Shown here piece after piece: positions 16,237-26,693 of a DNA stretch of 33,934 nucleotides. Numbering within the stretch: position 1 is the first letter of the stretch; each line of letters starts with the position of its first letter. The stretch spans positions 1 through 33,934 of the forward strand of contig JASLLM010000017.1 of NCBI GenBank assembly GCA_030747035.1. Reading direction: 5' to 3'. The notes under the pieces are model-generated. The model worked only from the letters and a program-made list of their open reading frames with translations, was not told where the DNA came from and did not search any database. Position numbers and translations under genes: made by a program. This DNA comes from Alphaproteobacteria bacterium (lineage in GTDB: Bacteria; Pseudomonadota; Alphaproteobacteria; GCA-2731375).

Positions 16237-16328
16237 GGTTGGTCCCATCCAATATAACCTTGGCACATAGGTGCCATGCGCCATGACCGCTTGTCCAGAG
16301 GCCGGACAGGCGTTAGGTTGGCGCCATC

Positions 16329-17255
16329 ATGACATCCTTGAGCGCCGCCATCGACGGCACGTTGGGGCGGCTGCCACCGCATATCCGTGCTGTCGTGCTG
16401 ATACTGTTTTCCACCCTGTGTTTCACCTCGATGCATACGGTGATCCGCTATGCCTCGACCGAGGGGCAGATCCATCCGTTCGAAGTGGCCTTTTTCCGCA
16501 ATGTTTTTGGCTTGCTGGCGGTATTGCCCTTTGCCCTGCGCCATCGGGCCGCGGCGTTTCGCACCCGCCGGCTGAAGCTGCACGCGGTGCGCGGCACCAT
16601 GCAGGTCTTCGCCATGTTGATGTTCTTCTATGCCCTGTCGATCACGCCATTGGCCAAGATTTCCGCCGTCAGTTTCACCGCACCCTTGTTCGCCACCCTG
16701 GGCGCGATCATTTTTCTCGGCGAGCGGGTCCGCCTACGCCGCATGGTCGCCCTGGCCCTGGGTTTTCTCGGCGCCATGATCATCATCCGGCCCGGCGTCA
16801 TCGCGTTGGATCTGGGTGCCGTGCTGGTCATGACGTCATCGTCCATCTGGGCCTGTGCCATCCTGATTATCAAGTCGCTGGCGCGGACCGAATCCAGCCT
16901 GACCATCACCACCTATCAGAACATCTTTCTGATCCCCTTCACGTTGATTGCCGCCGCGTTTTTTTGGACCTGGCCAAGCTGGTACATGCTGGGCCTGTTT
17001 GCGGTGATGGGCATTTTCGGCTCCATCGCCCACGTAGCCATGGCGGAAGCCTTGAAGCTGGCGGATACCACCGCCGTGCTGCCCTATGATTTCGTCCGCC
17101 TGATCTGGGCCAGCGGTATCGGTTTCGTGGTGTTCGGCGAGATACCGGAGCTTTGGACCTGGGTCGGCGGCTGCATCATTTTCGGCTCCACCACCTATAT
17201 CGCCTTCCGCGAGGCCCACCTAAAACGGGTGCGTTCCAGAGCGGAGGGGTCCTAG
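16329..17255 (+). CDS. DMT-superfamily (EamA-like) permease
   Basis: The 308-residue membrane protein has about ten predicted helices in two EamA repeats. The first repeat contains LILFSTLCFTSMHTVIRYAS and MLMFFYALSITPLAKISAVSFTAPLFATLGAIIFLGERV. The second contains GSIAHVAMAEALKLADTTAVLPYDFVRLIWASGIGFVVFGEIPE. Such carriers export or exchange metabolites such as amino acids; the substrate is unknown. The stop shares CTAG with the stop of the opposing tetR gene (17252-17255). Confidence 0.87.
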   Translation: MTSLSAAIDGTLGRLPPHIRAVVLILFSTLCFTSMHTVIRYASTEGQIHPFEVAFFRNVFGLLAVLPFALRHRAAAFRTRRLKLHAVRGTMQVFAMLMFFYALSITPLAKISAVSFTAPLFATLGAIIFLGERVRLRRMVALALGFLGAMIIIRPGVIALDLGAVLVMTSSSIWACAILIIKSLARTESSLTITTYQNIFLIPFTLIAAAFFWTWPSWYMLGLFAVMGIFGSIAHVAMAEALKLADTTAVLPYDFVRLIWASGIGFVVFGEIPELWTWVGGCIIFGSTTYIAFREAHLKRVRSRAEGS

Positions 17256-17911
17256 GGACGGGACCACATGCCGTTGAACAGGGTCAGGATGGTAGCGATC
17301 AGGTCATCCAGATTGCCCCGGCTGGGATCAAACCAGACCACGGTCCGGTTCAGGGAGCCCAGGATCAACGGGCGCAGCATGGGTACTGACAGGTTCGGCT
17401 GCAGCGCCCCGGCGGCCAGGGCGTCATGCAATAGCTGGTTCCAGTAATCTTCGTACTGGGCCCGGTCAGGCTGGACGTTTTGCTCCACTTCCTCCGGCAC
17501 CTGGCCCAGGAATTTCACATTTGTAGAGGTGTAATGGATGTTGCCGTGCAGCGCCTGTAGATGGCTGCGCAGGGCGGCCACGATCTTGTCCCTGGGCGTG
17601 GCCTGGGGGGGCAGTTTTTCCGCGCTGTCCCGCACCGCCATATAGGTGGAGCGCACGGCGATGGAGAGGATTTCCGAAAGAATCTGTTCCTTGGATTCGA
17701 AATGGTAATAGACACTGCCCGCCTGCATGCCCACCTTGGCGGCGATCTGGCGCATGGTTGTTTCCGTGAAGCCCTGTTCGGAAAACAGCCCCGCGGCGAC
17801 ATCCAGGATCAGCCGGCGGGAGACCGAGCCGCTTTGCGCTTTTTTGCGCCCGGATCGTGCCGCTTGTTGGGCGCTGTCCTGGCCGCCATTCTTGATATCC
17901 AGATCGCTCAT
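17252..17911 (-). CDS. TetR-family transcriptional regulator
   Basis: The 219-residue protein has a basic, Gln/Ser-rich leader. A TetR helix-turn-helix follows at about 33-80 (ILDVAAGLFSEQGFTETTMRQIAAKVGMQAGSVYYHFESKEQILSEIL), then an all-helical ligand-binding region. TetR proteins of catabolic clusters usually repress until a CoA-ester intermediate binds. It starts 5 nt after the stop of the second acyl-CoA dehydrogenase gene, so it is the last gene of the leftward catabolic operon. The 19-bp sequences found at both divergent promoters (23963-23981 and 24122-24140) are the obvious candidate operators, implying autoregulation. That link is inference. Confidence 0.9.
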   Translation of the reverse strand: MSDLDIKNGGQDSAQQAARSGRKKAQSGSVSRRLILDVAAGLFSEQGFTETTMRQIAAKVGMQAGSVYYHFESKEQILSEILSIAVRSTYMAVRDSAEKLPPQATPRDKIVAALRSHLQALHGNIHYTSTNVKFLGQVPEEVEQNVQPDRAQYEDYWNQLLHDALAAGALQPNLSVPMLRPLILGSLNRTVVWFDPSRGNLDDLIATILTLFNGMWSRP

Positions 17912-17916
17912 ATTGT

Positions 17917-18957
17917 TCAGCCCAGGTCCTCTAACCGTTGCGCCAAAAATGCGGCGTGTTCCTCGGCCCCGCCATGGGCCATCTCATCCATTTGCGCGCG
18001 TTTCAGATACAGGTGCGCATCCACTTCCGCCGTGAAGCCCATGCCGCCATGCACCTGAATATTCTCCACCCCGATACGCAGCGCCGTTTCCGACATGGCA
18101 ACCTTGGCGATCGAGGCGGCGGTCACCGCGCCGCTTGCATCTTCGTCACCATGGTCCAGGGCCCACAGGGCGGCCTGGACGGCGGAGCGCGCGCCTTCCA
18201 GGGCCACGGCCTGATCCGCCAGCAGGTGTTTGATGGCCTGGAAGGAGCCAATGGGCGCACCAAACTGATGCCGTTCCTTGGCGTAGTCGGAGGCCATCTG
18301 GTGCGCCCGCGTGGCCCCGCCCAACATCTCCGCCGCCGTTGCCGCCGCGGCGACGGCGCGCAGCCGCTCGGCATCGGCCGTGGCAAACGGCTTGGCCAAG
18401 GCTTCGCCTTCCAATTCGATATCGACGACAGCGAAACGGCGCGTGGGGTCAAGCGCATCGAAGGGCGTTATCGCGGCGTCGGTCAGATTTGGGTCAACCG
18501 CGACAAGGCTGCCGTGGCTCTGGATCAGAAACAGGTCGGCCGAGGCGCCATAGGCCAGCGGCGCGCCCTTGTCAGCCGCCAACAAGGGACACAGGACCAA
18601 TTCACCCTTGGCGATGCCAGGCAGCCAGCGCCGCTGTTGCTCGCTGCTGCCCGAAAGGCGCAGGGCCTCCACCCCAATGACGGCCGACGAAATGTACGGG
18701 CCGGAAGCCAGGGCGCCGCCCAAGGCTTCCAGAACGCAGCCCATTTCCACCATGCCCAGGCCGGTACCACCCAGATCCTCGGGGATCAGGGTGCCGAGAA
18801 ATCCCGCCTGGGCCAGGCCCCGCCATAGCTCGGGGCAATAATCCGGCGCGCCCGGCTCGAACAACGCGCGCACCCGGTCCATGGGCGAAAGGCGGCGCAC
18901 CAGTTCCTCGGCCGACTGGCGGATCAGGCGCTGGTCATCGGAGAATGCGAAATCCAT
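17917..18957 (-). CDS. Acyl-CoA dehydrogenase, probable non-catalytic-base subunit
   Basis: The start is set at 18957 (MDFAFSDDQRLIRQSAEELV), the standard opening of the family; the track start at 19074 is an extension. The 346-residue protein has the three-domain ACAD layout, including GFLGTLIPEDLGGTGLG, the FAD-contacting DYAKERHQFGAPIGSFQAIKHLLAD and IQVHGGMGFTAE. By hand alignment the helix-G position that holds the catalytic glutamate in IVD/LCAD-type enzymes is alanine (RAVAAAATAAEMLGG), and no C-terminal YEGT-type Glu is seen. It follows a second, dissimilar ACAD gene by 11 nt. Such tandem pairs form alpha2beta2 dehydrogenases in actinobacterial steroid degradation. Confidence 0.85.
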   Translation of the reverse strand: MDFAFSDDQRLIRQSAEELVRRLSPMDRVRALFEPGAPDYCPELWRGLAQAGFLGTLIPEDLGGTGLGMVEMGCVLEALGGALASGPYISSAVIGVEALRLSGSSEQQRRWLPGIAKGELVLCPLLAADKGAPLAYGASADLFLIQSHGSLVAVDPNLTDAAITPFDALDPTRRFAVVDIELEGEALAKPFATADAERLRAVAAAATAAEMLGGATRAHQMASDYAKERHQFGAPIGSFQAIKHLLADQAVALEGARSAVQAALWALDHGDEDASGAVTAASIAKVAMSETALRIGVENIQVHGGMGFTAEVDAHLYLKRAQMDEMAHGGAEEHAAFLAQRLEDLG

Positions 18958-18968
18958 CGTTCCCCTCC

Positions 18969-20150
18969 CTAGCGCGGCAGGCCAAGGGCGCGTTCGCCGA
19001 TGATCGTGCGTTGGATTTGCGCCGTACCGCCGGCAATGGTCATGCCGATGGTGGTGATATATTCCTCGCCCCAATAGTCGAACAGATCACGGCTCGATTG
19101 TTCGGACAGATCGGCGGCTTTCATGATTTCAAAGGCGAAGTCATGCATCTTTTTGTTCAGTTCGGTGGAATGCAGCTTCTGCATGGGCGCTTCCGGGCCG
19201 GGCGTGCCGCCCCTGGGTACCATGGCCGCGAAGCGATAGTTGTTCAGGACGGCAATACGGGCCTGGATGCCCAGTGCCACCAGCTTCGCCCGCAGCCCGG
19301 GATGTTCGATGGCGGGCGCCCCGGTTTGCCGCAGGCGCACTGTCTCGGCCAAATCCAGCAAGCGGGCGTAGTGCTGGCGGCAGGCAAAGCCAAGGACGGC
19401 GACGCCGCGCCTTTCGAACCCCAGCATGGTCATGGCGACGCCCCAGCCGCCGTTGAGCTCCCCCACCAGGGCAGAGGCGTCCAGCTTCACATCGTCGAAA
19501 AAGATCTCGTTGAAATCGCGCCGGCCGTTGATCTGGCGCAAGGGATTTATGCGGATGCCGGGGCTGTCCAGCTTCACGGCGAAGGCGCTCAACCCCTTAT
19601 GCGGCTTGGCCTCCGGGTCCGTGCGCGCCAACAGCAGGCAATAATCGGCGTGCTGGCCCAGGGTGTTCCATACCTTCTGCCCGTTCACCACATAGCCGTC
19701 ATCGACCGCCACGGCCCGGGTCCGCAGGCTGACGAGGTCGCTGCCGGCGCCCGGCTCCGAAAATCCCTGGGACCAAAGAAAGGTACCATCCGCCATGCGG
19801 GGGAGGAAAAAGTCCTTCTGCTCCGGCCGCGCCAGGGCCATCAACATAGGTGCGATAATGCGCACACCGATTCGGAATACATCCGGCGGCGCGTCGGCCT
19901 TGGCCAGTTCCTCGAAGATGATCAGTTGTTCGTTCAGGCTGCCGTCCTGGCCGCCGTATTCCTTCGGCCAGGCCCTGGCCACGAAGCCTGCTTCATGCAT
20001 GGCCTTCTGCCACTGCCGCAGCAGATCAATCTGGCCGGCCCCATCCAGGGCCTGATATTGGGCCCGCCATTCAGGCGTCAGATTTTGCCCGAGCCAGGAT
20101 TGCAGATCGTGGCGCAGCCTTGCCTCTGATTTGCTGTCGGAAAGATCCAT
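18969..20150 (-). CDS. Acyl-CoA dehydrogenase, probable catalytic subunit
   Basis: The start is placed at 20150 (MDLSDSKSEARLRHDLQSWLGQNL), giving 393 residues. Family motifs include ARAWPKEYGGQDGSLNEQLIIFEEL, the FAD/substrate loop QGFSEPGAGSDLVSLRTRA and VNGQKVWNTLGQHADYCLLLART. LGFERRGVA contains the Glu-Arg of the helix-G catalytic base, and IAGGTAQIQRTIIGERALGLPR closes the protein. It would introduce an alpha-beta double bond in an acyl-CoA, passing electrons to ETF. The WP.EYGG.DGS type with a separate smaller partner gene (17917-18957) matches heteromeric dehydrogenases acting on ring-substituted acyl-CoAs. Preceded by a strong intercistronic hairpin. Confidence 0.9.
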   Translation of the reverse strand: MDLSDSKSEARLRHDLQSWLGQNLTPEWRAQYQALDGAGQIDLLRQWQKAMHEAGFVARAWPKEYGGQDGSLNEQLIIFEELAKADAPPDVFRIGVRIIAPMLMALARPEQKDFFLPRMADGTFLWSQGFSEPGAGSDLVSLRTRAVAVDDGYVVNGQKVWNTLGQHADYCLLLARTDPEAKPHKGLSAFAVKLDSPGIRINPLRQINGRRDFNEIFFDDVKLDASALVGELNGGWGVAMTMLGFERRGVAVLGFACRQHYARLLDLAETVRLRQTGAPAIEHPGLRAKLVALGIQARIAVLNNYRFAAMVPRGGTPGPEAPMQKLHSTELNKKMHDFAFEIMKAADLSEQSSRDLFDYWGEEYITTIGMTIAGGTAQIQRTIIGERALGLPR

Positions 20151-20170
20151 CCGCCGCTCCCGGTTCGCCG

Positions 20171-20199
20171 GCCATGCCCGGTACTGCACCGGGCATGGC
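20171..20199 (-). promoter_or_regulatory. Perfect 12-bp intercistronic hairpin
   Basis: GCCATGCCCGGT (20171-20182) and ACCGGGCATGGC (20188-20199) are exact reverse complements around a 5-nt loop. It lies in the 63-nt gap between the BadI/MenB-like gene and the first dehydrogenase gene. On the minus strand it is followed by CGGCGAACC, not T-residues, so it should not terminate. It may stabilise the upstream message segment or set relative expression. Confidence 0.6.
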
Positions 20200-20213: not shown

Positions 20214-21011
20214 CTATTTGCGGAACTGCATGAAATCGGGCTGACGCTTCTCCGTGAACGCATTGGCGCCTTCCTTCGATTCCGGTGTGGTAAAGTAGTC
20301 CGGCGCGATCAGCTTTTGGAAATGGTTCGGCGCCGGATCGCGCAGATAATCGACATCGCTGTCGAAGGATGCCTTGACGATGCGCAGGCAGGTGGGGCTG
20401 AGAGAGAGAATTTCCTTGCACCACTGGGCCACTTCCTCGTCCAGTTTGTCCATGGGCACGACGACGTTGCAAAGACCCATGGCCAGGGCTTCCTCAGCCG
20501 GATAGCGGCGGCACAGCATCCACATCTCGCGCGCCTTCTTGGCACCGACCACGCGGGAGGCGTAGGAGACGATCCAGCCTTCCGCCGGCGACGCCACCCG
20601 GGGGCCATTCTGGCCAAAGATGGCATTGTCGGCGGCGATGGTCAGATCGCAGCAATAGGCCAGATGGTTGCCCATGCCGATGGCATAGCCCTTGACCACC
20701 GAGATCACCGGTTTGCCGGAATGGCGCACGGCTTCATGCACGTTGCGTGGGTTGAAGGACATGTGCCGTTCGGCCAGGCCGCCATCCTTTTCCCATTTCA
20801 CATCGCCGCCGGCGGAAAAGGCCCGCTCGCCGGTGGAGGTCAGCACGATGACGCCGACGCTCTTGTCGAGGCCGGCCATTTCGATGGCTCCGGCCAATTC
20901 GAAAAAGGTCAGGCCGCGCATGGCATTCAGGCGGTCGGGACGGTTGATGGTGACGGTGGCGACGCCGTCCTTGACGTCGTACAGCAGGTCTTGGAATTGT
21001 TCTTCGCTCAT
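20214..21011 (-). CDS. BadI/MenB-like crotonase, probable ring-opening hydrolase
   Basis: The second ATG (21011, MSEEQFQDLLYDVKDG) is favoured because AGGAG lies 8 nt before it, giving 265 residues. It is a crotonase of the MenB/BadI branch: FQDLLYDVKDGVATVTINRPDRLNAMRG, oxyanion loop FSAGGDV, CDLTIAADNAIFGQNGPRV, RVVGAKKAREMWMLCRRY and the C-terminal EGANAFTEKRQPDFMQFRK. BadI hydrolyses 2-ketocyclohexanecarboxyl-CoA to pimelyl-CoA, while MenB makes dihydroxynaphthoyl-CoA. No menaquinone genes are nearby, and an SDR, a ligase and dehydrogenases surround it, so ring cleavage of a cyclic beta-ketoacyl-CoA is the better guess. The usual Asp-Gly-Gly-Tyr-type segment is replaced by PAEGW, so specificity may differ. 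Confidence 0.82.
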   Translation of the reverse strand: MSEEQFQDLLYDVKDGVATVTINRPDRLNAMRGLTFFELAGAIEMAGLDKSVGVIVLTSTGERAFSAGGDVKWEKDGGLAERHMSFNPRNVHEAVRHSGKPVISVVKGYAIGMGNHLAYCCDLTIAADNAIFGQNGPRVASPAEGWIVSYASRVVGAKKAREMWMLCRRYPAEEALAMGLCNVVVPMDKLDEEVAQWCKEILSLSPTCLRIVKASFDSDVDYLRDPAPNHFQKLIAPDYFTTPESKEGANAFTEKRQPDFMQFRK

Positions 21012-21033
21012 GATCATGTTCTCCTATGTTTAG

Positions 21034-22686
21034 TCATGAAGTTTGTAGCTGTGTAATCAGGGTTTGCTTGTCGATCTTGCCGCCGGCGTTGCGCGGAAAG
21101 TCATCGACCGCCATGAGACGCTCGGGCTGGCACCATACGGCCAAGCCTTGTTCAATGATGAAGGCGTTCAGATCATCCAGGGCCGGGGTAACGTTTGGCT
21201 GGGCGCGCACGATCACGGCGCAGGCGATTTCGCCCAGGACCGGATCCTCAAATGGTATTACCGCCGCATCGGTGACCAGGTCGTGACGCAACAGGACTTC
21301 TTCAATCTGACGCGGATTGATGTTGCGGCCGCCGCGGATGATCATGTCCTTCTTGCGCCCGACGATGGAAAGATAACCTTCGCCGTCCAACTGGCCCAGA
21401 TCGCCGCTGTGATACCAGCCCGCCTCGTCCCAGACCATGGCGGTCTCTTCCGGAGCATTGAAAAAGCCATAGCTTTGATTGGCGCCGCGCCACAAAACTT
21501 CGCCCGGTTGGCCGGCATCGACCTCCTGGCCATCATCATCGGCCAGGCGAAGCTGTTGCCCGGGCAGGACGCGCCCCACGGTGCGCCGCTTGTCCAAGGC
21601 ATCGTCAACGGAAGTCATGGTCGGCACGCCCGCGTCCGAGGCGCCATAGATGGTTTGCATGACGCAGCCCAGGCGGCGTTCGGCCTGCTCCGCCACGCTG
21701 TCAGGCAGCTTGGCGCCGGCGTTGGTGACGAAGCGCAGGGCGGAAAGATCGTAGGCTTCGATGTCCGGCAGGCTCAACAGCTTGATCAATTGGGTCGGGA
21801 TCATCACCGCATAGGTGCACTGCTCCCGCGCTATCAAAGCCAGGGCATCCTCGGGGCGTTCTCCGTCCCAGCGTTCCAGCAGCACGGCGGTGCCGCCATG
21901 CATCAGGGGCGCGAGAATGGGATAGCTGTAGCCGGTGGCCCCGGTGCCCGCGGGCGCAATGGCGGCGGCGACATCGTCGGGGCCCAGATGCGCCACGTCG
22001 GCGCCATATTGCCCGACCAATTTGCAGACCGTGGCGTCGTCGCAATAAATGGTGCAGCGCGGCATCGCCGTGGTGCCGGAAGAAACCATGATTTGCATGG
22101 GCGCCGTGCTGTCGGGGCGAAACGAGGCCAGATGGTCCTTCCCATGTTTGGCCAGCCAGGCGTCATCCGCGGTCAGAGCATCGAAGGAAATTTCGCCCGG
22201 TTCGGCCGGCTCACGCATGATGATGGTCTGGCGCAGGCTGGGCAGATCGGCGCGCAGTTCCCGCACCAGTTCCCGGTGGTCGAAGCCCCGATAGATGGCG
22301 GGATGGATCAATGCCTTGGCCTCGCTCAGGCGCAGCAGATGCGCCATTTCCGCCTCCCGAAAGCCGTCATGCAGAGGCAGGAAGATGGCGCCGATCCGGT
22401 CAAGTGCCAGATGGCAGAGCGCCAGTTCAATCCAGTTAGGTGCCTGGATGGCGACGACATCGCCGGCGGTAATATTTAGGCTGAGAAGATTGGCGGCCAG
22501 ATTGCGGCTCTGCCATTGCAGGGCGCCATAGCTGACGCGACGGTCGGCGGCGATCAGCGCGGTCTTTTTGGGGTTGGCATCGGCCTGGCGGTCAAAATGG
22601 TCGACCACCAATTCGCCGCGCCAAAAACCCGCCGCGCGATAGGCCTCCGCCGCCGCGTCAAAACCCGATGCCGACCGCCCGTTCAT
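21034..22686 (-). CDS. Acyl-CoA ligase (AMP-forming), AliA-like
   Basis: The 550-residue enzyme of the ANL superfamily activates a carboxylic acid to its CoA thioester. The N-terminal part resembles cyclohexanecarboxylate/benzoate-type ligases (LVVDHFDRQADANPKKTALI, PLHDGFREAEMAHLLRLSEAKALI). Core motifs are YGASDAG, YHSGDLGQLDGEGYLSIVGRKKDMIIRGGRNINPRQIEE and the catalytic lysine in NAGGKIDK. The phosphate-binding loop is unusual: SSGTTAMPRC replaces the common SGTTGxPKG. It lies between the SDR and crotonase genes in the leftward operon, with an 8-nt gap to the SDR gene and only a weak ribosome site, suggesting translational coupling. Confidence 0.88.
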   Translation of the reverse strand: MNGRSASGFDAAAEAYRAAGFWRGELVVDHFDRQADANPKKTALIAADRRVSYGALQWQSRNLAANLLSLNITAGDVVAIQAPNWIELALCHLALDRIGAIFLPLHDGFREAEMAHLLRLSEAKALIHPAIYRGFDHRELVRELRADLPSLRQTIIMREPAEPGEISFDALTADDAWLAKHGKDHLASFRPDSTAPMQIMVSSGTTAMPRCTIYCDDATVCKLVGQYGADVAHLGPDDVAAAIAPAGTGATGYSYPILAPLMHGGTAVLLERWDGERPEDALALIAREQCTYAVMIPTQLIKLLSLPDIEAYDLSALRFVTNAGAKLPDSVAEQAERRLGCVMQTIYGASDAGVPTMTSVDDALDKRRTVGRVLPGQQLRLADDDGQEVDAGQPGEVLWRGANQSYGFFNAPEETAMVWDEAGWYHSGDLGQLDGEGYLSIVGRKKDMIIRGGRNINPRQIEEVLLRHDLVTDAAVIPFEDPVLGEIACAVIVRAQPNVTPALDDLNAFIIEQGLAVWCQPERLMAVDDFPRNAGGKIDKQTLITQLQTS

Positions 22687-22694
22687 GATATTGG

Positions 22695-23480
22695 CTAGCC
22701 GCGGACGTAGCGGCCGCCCGACATGTTCAAAACCTCACCGGTCATGAAACGGCCCTCATCGCTGGCCAGATAGGTGGCCAGCCCGGCCACATCGTCGGCT
22801 TGGCCCATGCGTCCCACCAGGGTTCGCTTGTCCTCGTTCTCGAACCATGCCTTGTCGTAGATGCGCTCCAGAAATTCGTTGTAGATCATGCCGGGTGCGA
22901 TGGAATTGACGGTGATGCCGCGCTGGCCCACTTCCGCCGCCGCGGCCCGGGTCAGGCCCATGACGCCGGCCTTCGCGGCGGAATAGGCGGCCTGACCGGC
23001 ACCTGAGGTATCGACCTGCCAGCCGGCGGTGGAGGAGACATTGATGATGGCGCCGCTGCCCTGTTTGATCATGCTGGGCAGGACGGCCCGCATGGTGCGG
23101 AAGGTGCCGGTCAGACAGATGTCCAGGATCATCTCCCAGTCTTCATCCGCCAGTTCCCAGACCGGACTGATCTTGTTGATGCCGGCATTGTTGTAAAGGA
23201 TATCGATGCGGCCATGCGCCTCCAGGGCCTTTGCGACACAGCCCTTGATATCGTCGCCGTCGCGCACGTCCAGCTTCAGGCCCAGCACGTCCTGGCCCAG
23301 TTCCTCGGACAGTTTTGCCGCCGTTTCGCCGGCCCGGCGCTCATGGGCGTCGGTGACAACGACGGTGGCGCCTTCCTGGCCATAGCGGCGGGCGATGGCC
23401 TGACCCATGCCGGCGCCGGCGGCGGCGGTAACGATCGCCACCTTGCCTTGCAGTCGGTTGCCTTGGGCCCCGCTCATCAT
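22695..23480 (-). CDS. SDR-family dehydrogenase (probable 3-hydroxyacyl-CoA dehydrogenase)
   Basis: The 261-residue classical SDR has a cofactor motif TAAAGAGMG (a variant of TGxxxGxG), NNAG, catalytic Ser in INVSSTAGW and the AYSAAK Tyr-Lys pair. The ending GRFMTGEVLNMSGGRYVRG is standard for the fold. An Asp after the second strand (VVTDAHE) favours NAD(H). In this operon it would oxidise the hydroxyl made by the MaoC-type hydratase to a ketone. Its ATG overlaps the hydratase stop (ATGA, 23477-23480), with GGAGG 5 nt upstream, indicating tight coupling. Substrate inferred from context only. Confidence 0.9.
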   Translation of the reverse strand: MMSGAQGNRLQGKVAIVTAAAGAGMGQAIARRYGQEGATVVVTDAHERRAGETAAKLSEELGQDVLGLKLDVRDGDDIKGCVAKALEAHGRIDILYNNAGINKISPVWELADEDWEMILDICLTGTFRTMRAVLPSMIKQGSGAIINVSSTAGWQVDTSGAGQAAYSAAKAGVMGLTRAAAAEVGQRGITVNSIAPGMIYNEFLERIYDKAWFENEDKRTLVGRMGQADDVAGLATYLASDEGRFMTGEVLNMSGGRYVRG

Positions 23481-23935
23481 GCTGCCTCCTCGTCCTTTGG
23501 CCGCATTTTCATCATCACCACCAGATTGCCCACCTGGACGATTTCGTCGCGCTGATTGAGCACGTCGTAGCGCCGGGTGACGATGCCTCGGTCGCCCTTG
23601 GAGGTGGCCTTCAGGGCGTCGATGGTGAGGCGGATCCTGATGGTGTCATTGATGTAAACGGGCCCTTTGAACTGCCATTGCAGATCCAGCAAAGCCAGGG
23701 CGCTGACCTCGAACAGACCGAGGCGCTGGGTCAGCCCGGTGGTTATGGCAACCACCAGCAGGCCATGGGCGATACGCTGGCCGAACGGCGAATTCTTGGC
23801 GTATTCGTCATTGGTATGCAGCTCGTTGTTGTCACCCGACAGGCCCGCGAAGGTCATCACGTCATGATTGGTGATGGTGCGGCCGGCACTTTCGAAGGTT
23901 TGCCCGACTTCAAGATCGTCAAAATACAACGCCAT
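23477..23935 (-). CDS. MaoC-type enoyl-CoA hydratase (hotdog fold)
   Basis: The 152-residue single-hotdog protein contains the (R)-hydratase signature D-x-N-x-x-H in AGLSGDNNELHTNDEYAKNSPFGQRIAHGLL, giving the catalytic Asp/His pair. It would add water to a 2-enoyl-CoA. It is the first gene of the leftward catabolic operon, next to the dual-operator region. The message start should be a few tens of bases upstream (promoter 23982-24009). It would supply the hydration step that BadK performs in cyclohexanecarboxylate breakdown; that equivalence is inference. Confidence 0.88.
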   Translation of the reverse strand: MALYFDDLEVGQTFESAGRTITNHDVMTFAGLSGDNNELHTNDEYAKNSPFGQRIAHGLLVVAITTGLTQRLGLFEVSALALLDLQWQFKGPVYINDTIRIRLTIDALKATSKGDRGIVTRRYDVLNQRDEIVQVGNLVVMMKMRPKDEEAA

Positions 23936-23962
23936 GGTCTTTGTCCTGTCCTATTCGATTTA

Positions 23963-23981
23963 CTAACCTAACATTTGTTAG
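23963..23981 (-). promoter_or_regulatory. Candidate TetR operator of the leftward operon
   Basis: The minus strand reads CTAACAAATGTTAGGTTAG directly after the -10 box of the leftward promoter. It includes the palindrome CTAACA-TT-TGTTAG (plus-strand 23968-23981). It matches the rightward operator copy at 15 of 19 aligned positions. Confidence 0.65.
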
Positions 23982-24009
23982 TTTACAAATGGCAACAGCC
24001 GTATGTCAA
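23982..24009 (-). promoter_or_regulatory. Sigma70-like promoter of the leftward catabolic operon
   Basis: On the minus strand TTGACA (24009-24004) is followed after 16 nt by TGTAAA (23987-23982), a 4/6 match to the -10 consensus. The candidate operator begins at the next base. Confidence 0.5.
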
Positions 24010-24087
24010 GGGTAGGACTATTTTGCCCAAATAGCAGCAAAAATAGGCCTATATCCCTCAAAATTTGCAATTCTGATTCCTGTGGCG

Positions 24088-24117
24088 TTGACAGACTAAG
24101 CAAAAATGGGTGAAAAT
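24088..24117 (+). promoter_or_regulatory. Sigma70-like promoter of the rightward catabolic operon
   Basis: A perfect TTGACA (24088-24093) is followed after 18 nt by GAAAAT (24112-24117), a 4/6 match to TATAAT. The predicted start point, about 24124, falls inside the operator copy at 24122-24140. Confidence 0.5.
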
Positions 24118-24121
24118 CGAC

Positions 24122-24140
24122 CTAACAAACGTTTGATTAA
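24122..24140 (+). promoter_or_regulatory. Candidate TetR operator of the rightward operon
   Basis: The plus strand reads CTAACAAACGTTTGATTAA, with the perfect palindrome CAAACGTTTG at 24126-24135. It shares CTAACAAA and 15 of 19 positions with the leftward copy and lies over the likely transcription start, a classic repressor position. Confidence 0.65.
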
Positions 24141-24157
24141 TGCCAGGGAGACTATAA

Positions 24158-24946
24158 ATGAGCAATATTCTTGATCTGCAGAACCACGTGGCCATGATTT
24201 CGGGTGCCGGCCAGGGTATTGGCCGCGCCATCGCCCTGGGCTTTGCCCAGAACGGCGCCAAGGGGGTGGTGGTCAACGACTACCATTTGGACCGGGCCGA
24301 GGCGACGGCGGAAATGGTGCGTGCCGCGGGCTGCGAGGCCCTGCCGGTACAATGCGACGTAACCGATCTGGATGCGGTCAAGGATATGGTGAAGCAGGGC
24401 GAGGCCGCCTTTGGTCAGATCGATATCATGATCAACAATGCGGGCAATGCGGGGCCCTCCGTCCCGGACCGCACCGGCCTGCCGTTTTGGGAGACCGAGC
24501 CGGAGGATTGGGCAAAATGGATCGATACCAATCTGTATGGCGTCCTGAACTGCTCCCGCGCCACGGTCGCCGGCATGGTCGAACGTGGCTTTGGCCGGGT
24601 GATCAATATTATTTCCGATGCCGGCCGGGTTGGTGAGCCGCATCTGGTGCCTTATTCCGCCGCCAAGGGCGGGGCGGCTTCGTTCACCCGAGCGCTGGCC
24701 AAGGCGACCGCCAAGAAGGGCGTAACCGTCAACAATGTGGCCATCGGCGCGGTTGAGACCGACGCCCTTGCCGGCATCATGGCGCAACCGGAGCGTTTCG
24801 CCAAAATGGTCCGGGTCTATCCCATCGGCCGCATCGGCCAGCCGGAAGAGGTCGCCAACATGGTGGTGTTCCTGTGCTCGGCCGCGGGCGAATGGATCAC
24901 GGGTCAGACCTATCCCGTGAACGGCGGCTATTCCACCGCGATGTAG
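24158..24946 (+). CDS. SDR-family dehydrogenase, BadH-like
   Basis: The 262-residue SDR has cofactor motif SGAGQGIGRA, NNAG, the catalytic segment INIISDAGRVGEPHLVPYSAAKGG (Ser, Tyr, Lys) and the end EWITGQTYPVNGGYSTAM. The stretch MVERGFGRVINIISDAGRVGE closely resembles the 2-hydroxycyclohexanecarboxyl-CoA dehydrogenase BadH and related FabG-type enzymes. It likely oxidises a hydroxyacyl-CoA with NAD(P). AGGGAG lies about 8 nt before ATG. First gene of the rightward operon, downstream of a promoter/operator pair; the ligase gene follows after 3 nt. Confidence 0.9.
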   Translation: MSNILDLQNHVAMISGAGQGIGRAIALGFAQNGAKGVVVNDYHLDRAEATAEMVRAAGCEALPVQCDVTDLDAVKDMVKQGEAAFGQIDIMINNAGNAGPSVPDRTGLPFWETEPEDWAKWIDTNLYGVLNCSRATVAGMVERGFGRVINIISDAGRVGEPHLVPYSAAKGGAASFTRALAKATAKKGVTVNNVAIGAVETDALAGIMAQPERFAKMVRVYPIGRIGQPEEVANMVVFLCSAAGEWITGQTYPVNGGYSTAM

Positions 24947-24949
24947 GTT

Positions 24950-26488
24950 ATGACCATGAACGGCGGCTCTGTTGTCCTGGGCGAGCGGGTCGTGGCGATG
25001 GCCGATCTGCTGGATCGCGCCGCCCGCGCCGCCACCGGCCTGGCGCGGCAGCACAACGTGGGCGAGGGCGACAGCGTCGCAATCATGATGCGCAACGATA
25101 TTGCCTTTCTCGAAGCCAGCTTCGCGGCCGACTTTCTGGGCGCCTATGCGGTGCCCATCAACTGGCATTTCAAAGCGGACGAAGTTCGCTACATCCTTGA
25201 TGATGCCAGGGCACGGGTGCTGGTCATTCATGCGGATCTGTTGCGCCAATTGGACCCTTCGGCCCTGGGCGAAGTGCAGATCCTGGTGGCGGAAACGCTG
25301 GGGGAAGTGGCGGCGGACTATAATCTGCCGCCGTCGGTGTGTCCGGTGCCGGATGGCCATATGCCATGGGATGTCTGGCTGTCGGAATATGTGCCCTGGT
25401 CGAAACCGCCACCGGCGGAGCGCGCTTCCATGCTCTATACCTCCGGCACCACCGGAAAGCCCAAGGGCGTGCGCCGTGAGCCGCTGCGGGCCGAGCATTT
25501 GGAATGGTCGGTCACGCGGCAGAATTTGGTCGCCTCGGCGCCGCAAAAGATCAACCTGATCACTGGGCCGATGTACCATGCCGCTCCGAACGCCCATGCC
25601 CTGGCTGGCGTGCGGGCCGGTGGCACGGTGGTGATCCAGCCGCGTTTCGATGCGGCCGAAATGCTGGCTCTGGTCGAACGCCACCGCGTCAGCCACATGC
25701 ACTTGGTGCCAACCATGTTCGTGCGTCTGCTGAAACTGCCCGAAGAGGTCAAGATGGGTCATGACTTATCTTCTCTGGAGGCTGTCCTGCATGCCGCCGC
25801 ACCCTGCCCGACGGAGGTAAAGCGCCGAATGCTGGAATGGTGGGGCCCCATCATCCATGAATACTACGGCGCCACCGAAATCGGCATGGTGGTCTATTGC
25901 GATGCCGAAAACTGGCTGGCGCATCCGGGCTCGGTCGGAACGCCATTGCCGGGCATGACCGTGGAAATTCTGGACGAAAACCGCCAACCCCTGCCGCGGG
26001 GGGAAATCGGCGAGATTTTCGCCCATTATGCCGGCTTTTCAGAGTTCACCTATCAGAACCGGGAACAGGACTATCTGGAAAACAAGGAAGGGCAATTATT
26101 CTCGGTCGGAGACATCGGCTATCTGGACGCGGACAATTTTCTCTACATCTGCGACCGCAAGTCCGACATGGTGATCTCCGGCGGTGTCAATATCTATCCG
26201 ACCGAAATCGAGGCCGTCATTCTCAATCATCCTGGCGTGCGCGACTGTGCCGTGTTCGGCATTCCCGACGACGAATTCGGCGAAGCCTTGGCCGCCGTTG
26301 TCGAACCGATGGATACCGGTATCCTTGATGCCGAGGCGGTGCGCGCCCATGTGCGCGGGCACCTGGCGGGCTACAAGGTTCCCAAGGTGGTGCAATTCCA
26401 CGCTAGTCTGCCACGTGAAGATTCGGGCAAAATCCGCAAGCCCGTCTTGCGCGCCGCCTTCTGGGCCGAGGAGGAGCGCCAGATCTAG
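24950..26488 (+). CDS. Acyl-CoA ligase (AMP-forming), FadD-type
   Basis: The 512-residue ANL-superfamily ligase has an intact set of motifs: LYTSGTTGKPKGV phosphate loop, YYGATEIG, SVGDIGYLDADNFLYICDRKSDMVISGGVNIYPTEIE hinge/A8 region and the catalytic lysine in DSGKIRKP. Sequence style (ASMLYTSGTTGKPKG, EYYGATEIGMVVYCDAENWLAHPGSVG) is that of actinobacterial/proteobacterial ligases acting on steroid, bile-acid or other bulky carboxylates, although fatty acids are possible. It starts 3 nt after the SDR stop; ATG at 24950 or 24956 are both possible. It is the second ligase of the regulon, so two different acids or pathway stages may be activated. Confidence 0.9.
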   Translation: MTMNGGSVVLGERVVAMADLLDRAARAATGLARQHNVGEGDSVAIMMRNDIAFLEASFAADFLGAYAVPINWHFKADEVRYILDDARARVLVIHADLLRQLDPSALGEVQILVAETLGEVAADYNLPPSVCPVPDGHMPWDVWLSEYVPWSKPPPAERASMLYTSGTTGKPKGVRREPLRAEHLEWSVTRQNLVASAPQKINLITGPMYHAAPNAHALAGVRAGGTVVIQPRFDAAEMLALVERHRVSHMHLVPTMFVRLLKLPEEVKMGHDLSSLEAVLHAAAPCPTEVKRRMLEWWGPIIHEYYGATEIGMVVYCDAENWLAHPGSVGTPLPGMTVEILDENRQPLPRGEIGEIFAHYAGFSEFTYQNREQDYLENKEGQLFSVGDIGYLDADNFLYICDRKSDMVISGGVNIYPTEIEAVILNHPGVRDCAVFGIPDDEFGEALAAVVEPMDTGILDAEAVRAHVRGHLAGYKVPKVVQFHASLPREDSGKIRKPVLRAAFWAEEERQI

Positions 26489-26504: not shown

Positions 26505-26693
26505 TCATTCTCGGCGTTTTCGACTTGTGTCGGTTAAACCCCGATCGGTTTCCAAGGCCGCTTCCACATGCACGCAGGAGACTTCCGCATCACGAAATGC
26601 CAGCAGTTTCTCGATCGGAAACTCGACCCTGCCGATATCTCTGCGGTCTTTCAGGCGGTCCTTCGCCTCATGCTTCGTCTTCCCCATGGCCAT
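26505..26693 (-). CDS. Possible small basic protein, hypothetical
   Basis: A 62-codon frame (MAMGKTKHEAKDRLKDRRDIGRVEFPIEKLLAFRDAEVSCVHVEAALETDRGLTDTSRKRRE) fills most of the 292-nt gap between the ligase and crotonase genes, on the opposite strand. GGCAGG lies just before the ATG at 26693; the track start at 26735 has no ribosome site. The N-terminus is highly charged. I do not recognise it. Its existence would split the rightward operon only on the antisense strand. Low confidence. Confidence 0.3.
   Translation of the reverse strand: MAMGKTKHEAKDRLKDRRDIGRVEFPIEKLLAFRDAEVSCVHVEAALETDRGLTDTSRKRRE

Follow-up and report, generated by a model that had tools for sequence, protein, structure and literature searches.

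Based on two palindromic sites, their position at two divergent promoters, their conservation in related genomes and their link to a clade of TetR-family proteins, we infer that the TetR protein whose gene closes the leftward operon acts as a switch. As a dimer, it would bind CTAAC-N4-GTTAG at both promoters and repress seven leftward and two rightward genes until an acyl-CoA of the pathway releases it (probability of about 0.86). Judged from sequence, joint control of both operons and of its own gene by this regulator is very probable. The coordinates of all features in the window, i.e. the whole analysed stretch of 33,934 nucleotides, are summarised in Table 1.

Both promoters and both 19-bp boxes were confirmed by direct reading at the positions given in the preliminary description, as was the identity of the boxes at 15 of 19 positions. 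The TTGACA hexamer is perfect in both promoters, which were recovered in a promoter scan with 10/12 each (0.6 expected). The -10 hexamers are weak. On the minus strand the scan favours an N18 TAAACT as -10, which runs into the left operator, so that the exact left -10 is uncertain; the left -10 is also not kept in the related genome G011. The joint consensus of the two 19-mers (up to three mismatches) has only two matches in the window, compared to 0.01 expected from shuffles. A pattern search, used in place of matrix scoring, found exactly two copies of CTAACAAAYGTT in the 4,315,373-base MAG, both in the 222-bp intergenic region, which extends the earlier observation that the window holds no further copy. 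Two matches per genome is about the chance number, but their occurrence within 160 bp of one divergent intergenic region is not chance. A potential third operator at 16303 in front of an EamA gene (two mismatches) was rejected because several chance matches in the window score equally.

Each box contains an inverted repeat, with perfect arms in the left box (CTAACA-AA-TGTTAG, core 23968-23981) and imperfect ones in the right box (CTAACA-AA-CGTTTG). The natural operator unit is therefore the palindrome CTAAC-N4-GTTAG and not a directional 19-bp word as proposed initially, while the assignment of two sites, one per promoter, holds.

The gaps between the genes of the leftward operon range from -4 to 24 bp, and the operon ends with the TetR gene, as had been described. 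Since tetR is the last gene of this operon, the switch would be autoregulated. Eleven genes were originally placed under its control, but nine is the safer prediction. Downstream of ligase 2, a crotonase gene (26781) and a DsbA-like gene (27526) follow only after a gap of 292 bp, which contains a small minus-strand ORF with promoter-like sequence in front of it; this ORF has counterparts of 58-70% identity in two congeneric species. The presence of this conserved opposite-strand gene before the crotonase gene indicates that the rightward operon probably comprises only two genes, and no operator was found in front of the crotonase gene. The product of the small gene is charged, and its homologues in G001 and G003 occur without the window's neighbouring genes nearby.

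Table 1 Features of the two divergent operons and of their shared intergenic region
Feature	Position	Strand	Remarks
TetR-family repressor	17252..17911	-	PF00440 + TetR_C_24; closes leftward operon, 5 bp downstream of acyl-CoA dehydrogenase D
Acyl-CoA dehydrogenase D	17917..18957	-	IpdE2/PimD-like; start re-set to ATG at 18957 behind GGGAGGGGAACG
Acyl-CoA dehydrogenase C	18969..20189	-	PimC-like; nearest solved sequences 4x28 and Tcur3483
BadI/MenB-like crotonase	20214..21017	-	Predicted ring-cleaving hydrolase
Acyl-CoA ligase 1, AMP-binding	21034..22686	-	Weakly cyclohexanecarboxylate-CoA-ligase-like; missing from G011 operon
SDR oxidoreductase 1	22695..23480	-	4-bp overlap with MaoC
MaoC-type enoyl-CoA hydratase	23477..23935	-	First gene of leftward operon; 84% identical in G011
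Left operator CTAACAAATGTTAGGTTAG	23963..23981	-	Directly 3' of TGTAAA; abuts/overlaps -10 of leftward promoter; kept in G011 and G004
Leftward promoter	23982..24009	-	TTGACA (24009-24004)-N16-TGTAAA (23987-23982), alternative N18 TAAACT; TTGACA 29-30 bp from operator core in three loci
Rightward promoter	24088..24117	+	TTGACA (24088-24093)-N18-GAAAAT (24112-24117); in G011 TTGACA-N18-CAAAAT with identical 36-bp offset to core
Right operator CTAACAAACGTTTGATTAA	24122..24140	+	Begins 4 bp past GAAAAT; over likely transcription start; kept in G011 and G004
SDR oxidoreductase 2	24158..24946	+	BadH-like; first gene of rightward operon; 82% identical in G011
Acyl-CoA ligase 2	24950..26488	+	3 bp after SDR 2; probably last gene of rightward operon
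Small conserved gene	26505..26693	-	About 62 aa; in gap between ligase 2 and crotonase

Comparison of 15 genomes of the order yielded close TetR orthologues in two relatives only, G011 (67% identity) and G004 (63%), and no further ones were found in class-wide (385 genomes) or phylum-wide (399 genomes) searches. In G011, SDR 2 is divergent from MaoC-SDR1-BadI-ACAD-ACAD-TetR, and both ligase genes are missing. The intergenic region of G011 has a length of 349 bp and is mostly unalignable with that of the window, yet both operators are present, the one next to MaoC reading CTAACAAGCGTTTGGT and the one next to SDR 2 CGAACAAGCGTTAGGT. When only the two window sites went into the matrix, these two operators ranked first and second in 20 kb, a result that none of 2000 shuffles matched. 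The locus of G004 is rearranged, with TetR-BadI divergent from an SDR gene, and again features two operators between the divergent genes, one per direction (0/1000 shuffles as good). A matrix from the window and G011 sites recovers the sites of these loci, and none of 1000-2000 shuffles did as well.

The same operator is present at all six divergent promoters of the window genome (G000), G011 and G004. In these loci, TTGACA lies 30, 29 and 30 bp from the operator core on the leftward side and 36, 36 and 31 bp on the rightward side. At the level of sequence, this arrangement is a phylogenetic footprint of a predicted operator at the -10/start region. The centre-to-centre spacing of the two operators is 154, 237 and 121 bp. 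DNA looping was rejected, as the spacing is not conserved and none of the values comes close to an integral number of helical turns (10.5 bp each); the difference between species indicates that the two sites probably act independently.

Further sites were noted in both relatives. G011 has a third, perfect-consensus operator, CGAACAAACGTTAGGTTA (L065 1501-1518; G011:C96:2378), approximately 55 bp before an apparent CaiB/BaiF-like CoA-transferase gene, and this transferase may stand in for the ligase genes missing from the operon. In G004, the ortholog-type site CTAACGCTTGTTTG (L081, G004:C53:17672) is located before an SDR gene followed by a MaoC-like gene and is a possible extra target.

The regulator itself shows the features of the TetR family, with an N-terminal HTH (PF00440, 62.9 bits, cut-off 24) and an all-helical C-terminal domain (TetR_C_24, 45.4 bits, cut-off 26.4). 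Its AlphaFold model is all-helical (pLDDT 86) and matches TetR folds in the PDB. Palindromic sites at the -10/start of the predicted target promoters are likewise in line with this family. Foldseek ranks 2-8 are PfmR, KstR2 and FadR (plus PfiT), and AibR follows at ranks 23 and 31; the matches include the FadR stearoyl-CoA and the AibR isovaleryl-CoA complexes. The model is thus similar to acyl-CoA-binding members of the FadR/PfmR/KstR2/AibR type, in a family whose folds are alike in general. This resemblance to acyl-CoA-responsive repressors is suggestive of an acyl-CoA as ligand.

The acyl-CoA-responsive repressors FadR (Bacillus), PfmR (Thermus) and AibR (Myxococcus) are among the best-ranked fold matches, and FadR and AibR were solved with acyl-CoA complexes; however, they have other targets and share only 19-23% identity with the window TetR. 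KstR2 of Mycobacterium tuberculosis (4w97, 4w1u) represses steroid ring-degradation genes, among them those for a ligase and a pair of acyl-CoA dehydrogenases, and responds to a CoA thioester. Its operator differs from that of the window, the identity is 23-24%, and no IpdAB was recognised in the window cluster. Among the systems compared, the closest regulatory analogue is EdcR of Caenibius tardaugens, also an alphaproteobacterial TetR repressor, which acts on two divergent catabolic (estrogen) operons via palindromic operators over the -10 boxes (PMC8700777). The reported effectors are estrogens, and a weaker autoregulation was proposed (PMC8700777). Its operator TnnCnnTACnAnTnGTAnnGnnA is unlike CTAAC-N4-GTTAG, and edcR has its own promoter (PMC8700777), whereas here tetR closes the leftward operon.

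Palindromes of the same type were also observed just upstream of the tetR genes of more distant relatives (33-45% identity to the window TetR), where 0-1 of 1000 shuffles were as good. Bearers of such sites include G000 (C74 and C206), G001, G004, G005, G006, G009, G011 and G015. In other Alphaproteobacteria, the palindrome accompanies related tetR genes on plasmids (Paracoccus, Sagittula and Roseibium). These distant TetR genes adjoin other acyl-CoA dehydrogenase or carboxylase genes. The plasmid loci additionally feature a site pair upstream of a lipid-transfer protein gene; in two of the plasmids, this gene and one for a hexapeptide transferase are arranged divergently. The plasmid-encoded TetRs (L086, L087, L088) are located in acyclic-terpene/biotin-carboxylase clusters with BioY. 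Across the TetRs sharing the operator, the recognition-helix residues (QAGS(V/I)YYHF in most) are strongly conserved. Together with the position of the palindrome before the tetR genes of the clade, this indicates that the site most likely belongs to this TetR clade. No bacterial TetR site was found in a search of the literature for the operator string.

The existence of such relatives in the same cell raises the question of which TetR uses the sites. It is conceivable, albeit unlikely, that the operators are real but that C74, C206 or several paralogues act as main regulator, making the locus part of an overlapping network and not a private switch. Near-identical palindromes (CTAACTAACGTTCGAT and CTAACTAATGTTAGAA) are found upstream of the paralogues C74 and C206, and the recognition helix of the C74 paralogue (L054) is almost the same as that of the window TetR. 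Paralogues with such similar operators and helices could share sites, so that the window TetR may not be their only user. However, the local TetR is found together with the operon and both sites in G011, and G004 combines it with BadI and two sites. In addition, the N4 centres differ, being AAAY/AAGC in the local sites and TAAY in the paralogue sites. A near-perfect palindrome of the window's own genome, ATCTAACAACTGTTAGAT (L070, G000:C285:15257), lies between genes for a luciferase-like monooxygenase and an SDR and is a possible target of a paralogous TetR.

The proposed autoregulated bidirectional switch is therefore supported in its core, given two predicted TetR operators on divergent promoters, their recurrence in both close orthologous loci and the palindrome before TetR relatives, but for nine genes instead of eleven and possibly with paralogues sharing the sites. 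In the repressed state, a TetR dimer would occupy each palindrome, the left one at the -10/start of its promoter and the right one at the start of the opposite promoter, and would sterically block RNA polymerase on both sides. MaoC, SDR 1, ligase 1, the BadI-like hydrolase, both acyl-CoA dehydrogenases and the tetR gene on one side, and SDR 2 and ligase 2 on the other, would then be off. Binding of a pathway acyl-CoA would release TetR from the DNA and turn both operons on, with independent action of the two operators being more likely than action via a loop. Repression is the more likely mode, although the sequence would also be compatible with activation by TetR.

The encoded enzymes would activate an alicyclic carboxylic acid with CoA, oxidise, hydrate and re-oxidise it and open the ring by hydrolysis, which is the enzyme set of the bad-ali pathway. 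When curated cut-offs are applied, none of the genes qualifies as an orthologue of aliA, aliB, badK, badH or badI, with scores of 273.6 of 467.6 bits for BadI, 186 of 431 for BadH and 313 of 792 for the CHC-CoA ligase. Since no gene passes these cut-offs, the substrate may be a different one. The bad-ali clusters resemble the window locus in that their operons for alicyclic acids are divergent and encode a BadI-type ring hydrolase, and their regulator BadR has an acyl-CoA as effector; in Aromatoleum, two operators are located at the two divergent promoters (PMC9795900). In Gram-negative bad-ali clusters, this regulator is of the MarR type with the operator CAAN4TTG, and TetR-like genes were noted in Gram-positive ones (PMC9795900). 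In contrast, the regulator found here is a TetR, and of the two boxes in the window only one matches CAAN4TTG.

That a MarR-type BadR uses the sites is very improbable, even though CAAACGTTTG in the right box and CAAGCGTTTG in the MaoC-side site of G011 match its consensus (PMC9795900). CAAN4TTG fixes only six bases and fits two of the six orthologous sites, the left window box not being among them. In addition, the palindrome tracks TetR genes in unrelated clusters, and the window genes searched yielded no MarR gene. It is hardly credible that the 19-mers resemble each other by chance or are a mobile repeat that regulates nothing, although each site alone is short: they are kept in position and sequence in two relatives while the rest of the intergenic region diverged, shuffles did not do as well, and the source genome holds no further copies. 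As far as sequence comparison allows, this explanation is refuted, with two orthologous loci behind the conservation argument.

Returning to regulation by TetR, a wider reading appears possible, at somewhat less than even odds. An acyl-CoA-sensing TetR clade of Alphaproteobacteria would share CTAAC-N4-GTTAG and have spread with many acyl-CoA pathways, such as alicyclic ring cleavage here and the terpene/carboxylase clusters on plasmids. Paralogues in the same cell would make up an overlapping network whose specificity is set by the N4 centre, and the divergon would be its ring-cleavage branch and a Gram-negative TetR counterpart of BadR.

The type of switch is well understood; the ring-compound breakdown pathway that it would serve is unstudied. 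From sequence alone, an alicyclic-acid pathway of Rhodospirillaceae-type bacteria, so far uncharacterised, can be given a regulator, its likely binding sites and a gene set. The operator motif is transferable to a clade of catabolic TetRs for which no operator description was found in the literature searched. Targets in numerous genomes and plasmids can be predicted from it, and it may serve as a part for an acyl-CoA biosensor.
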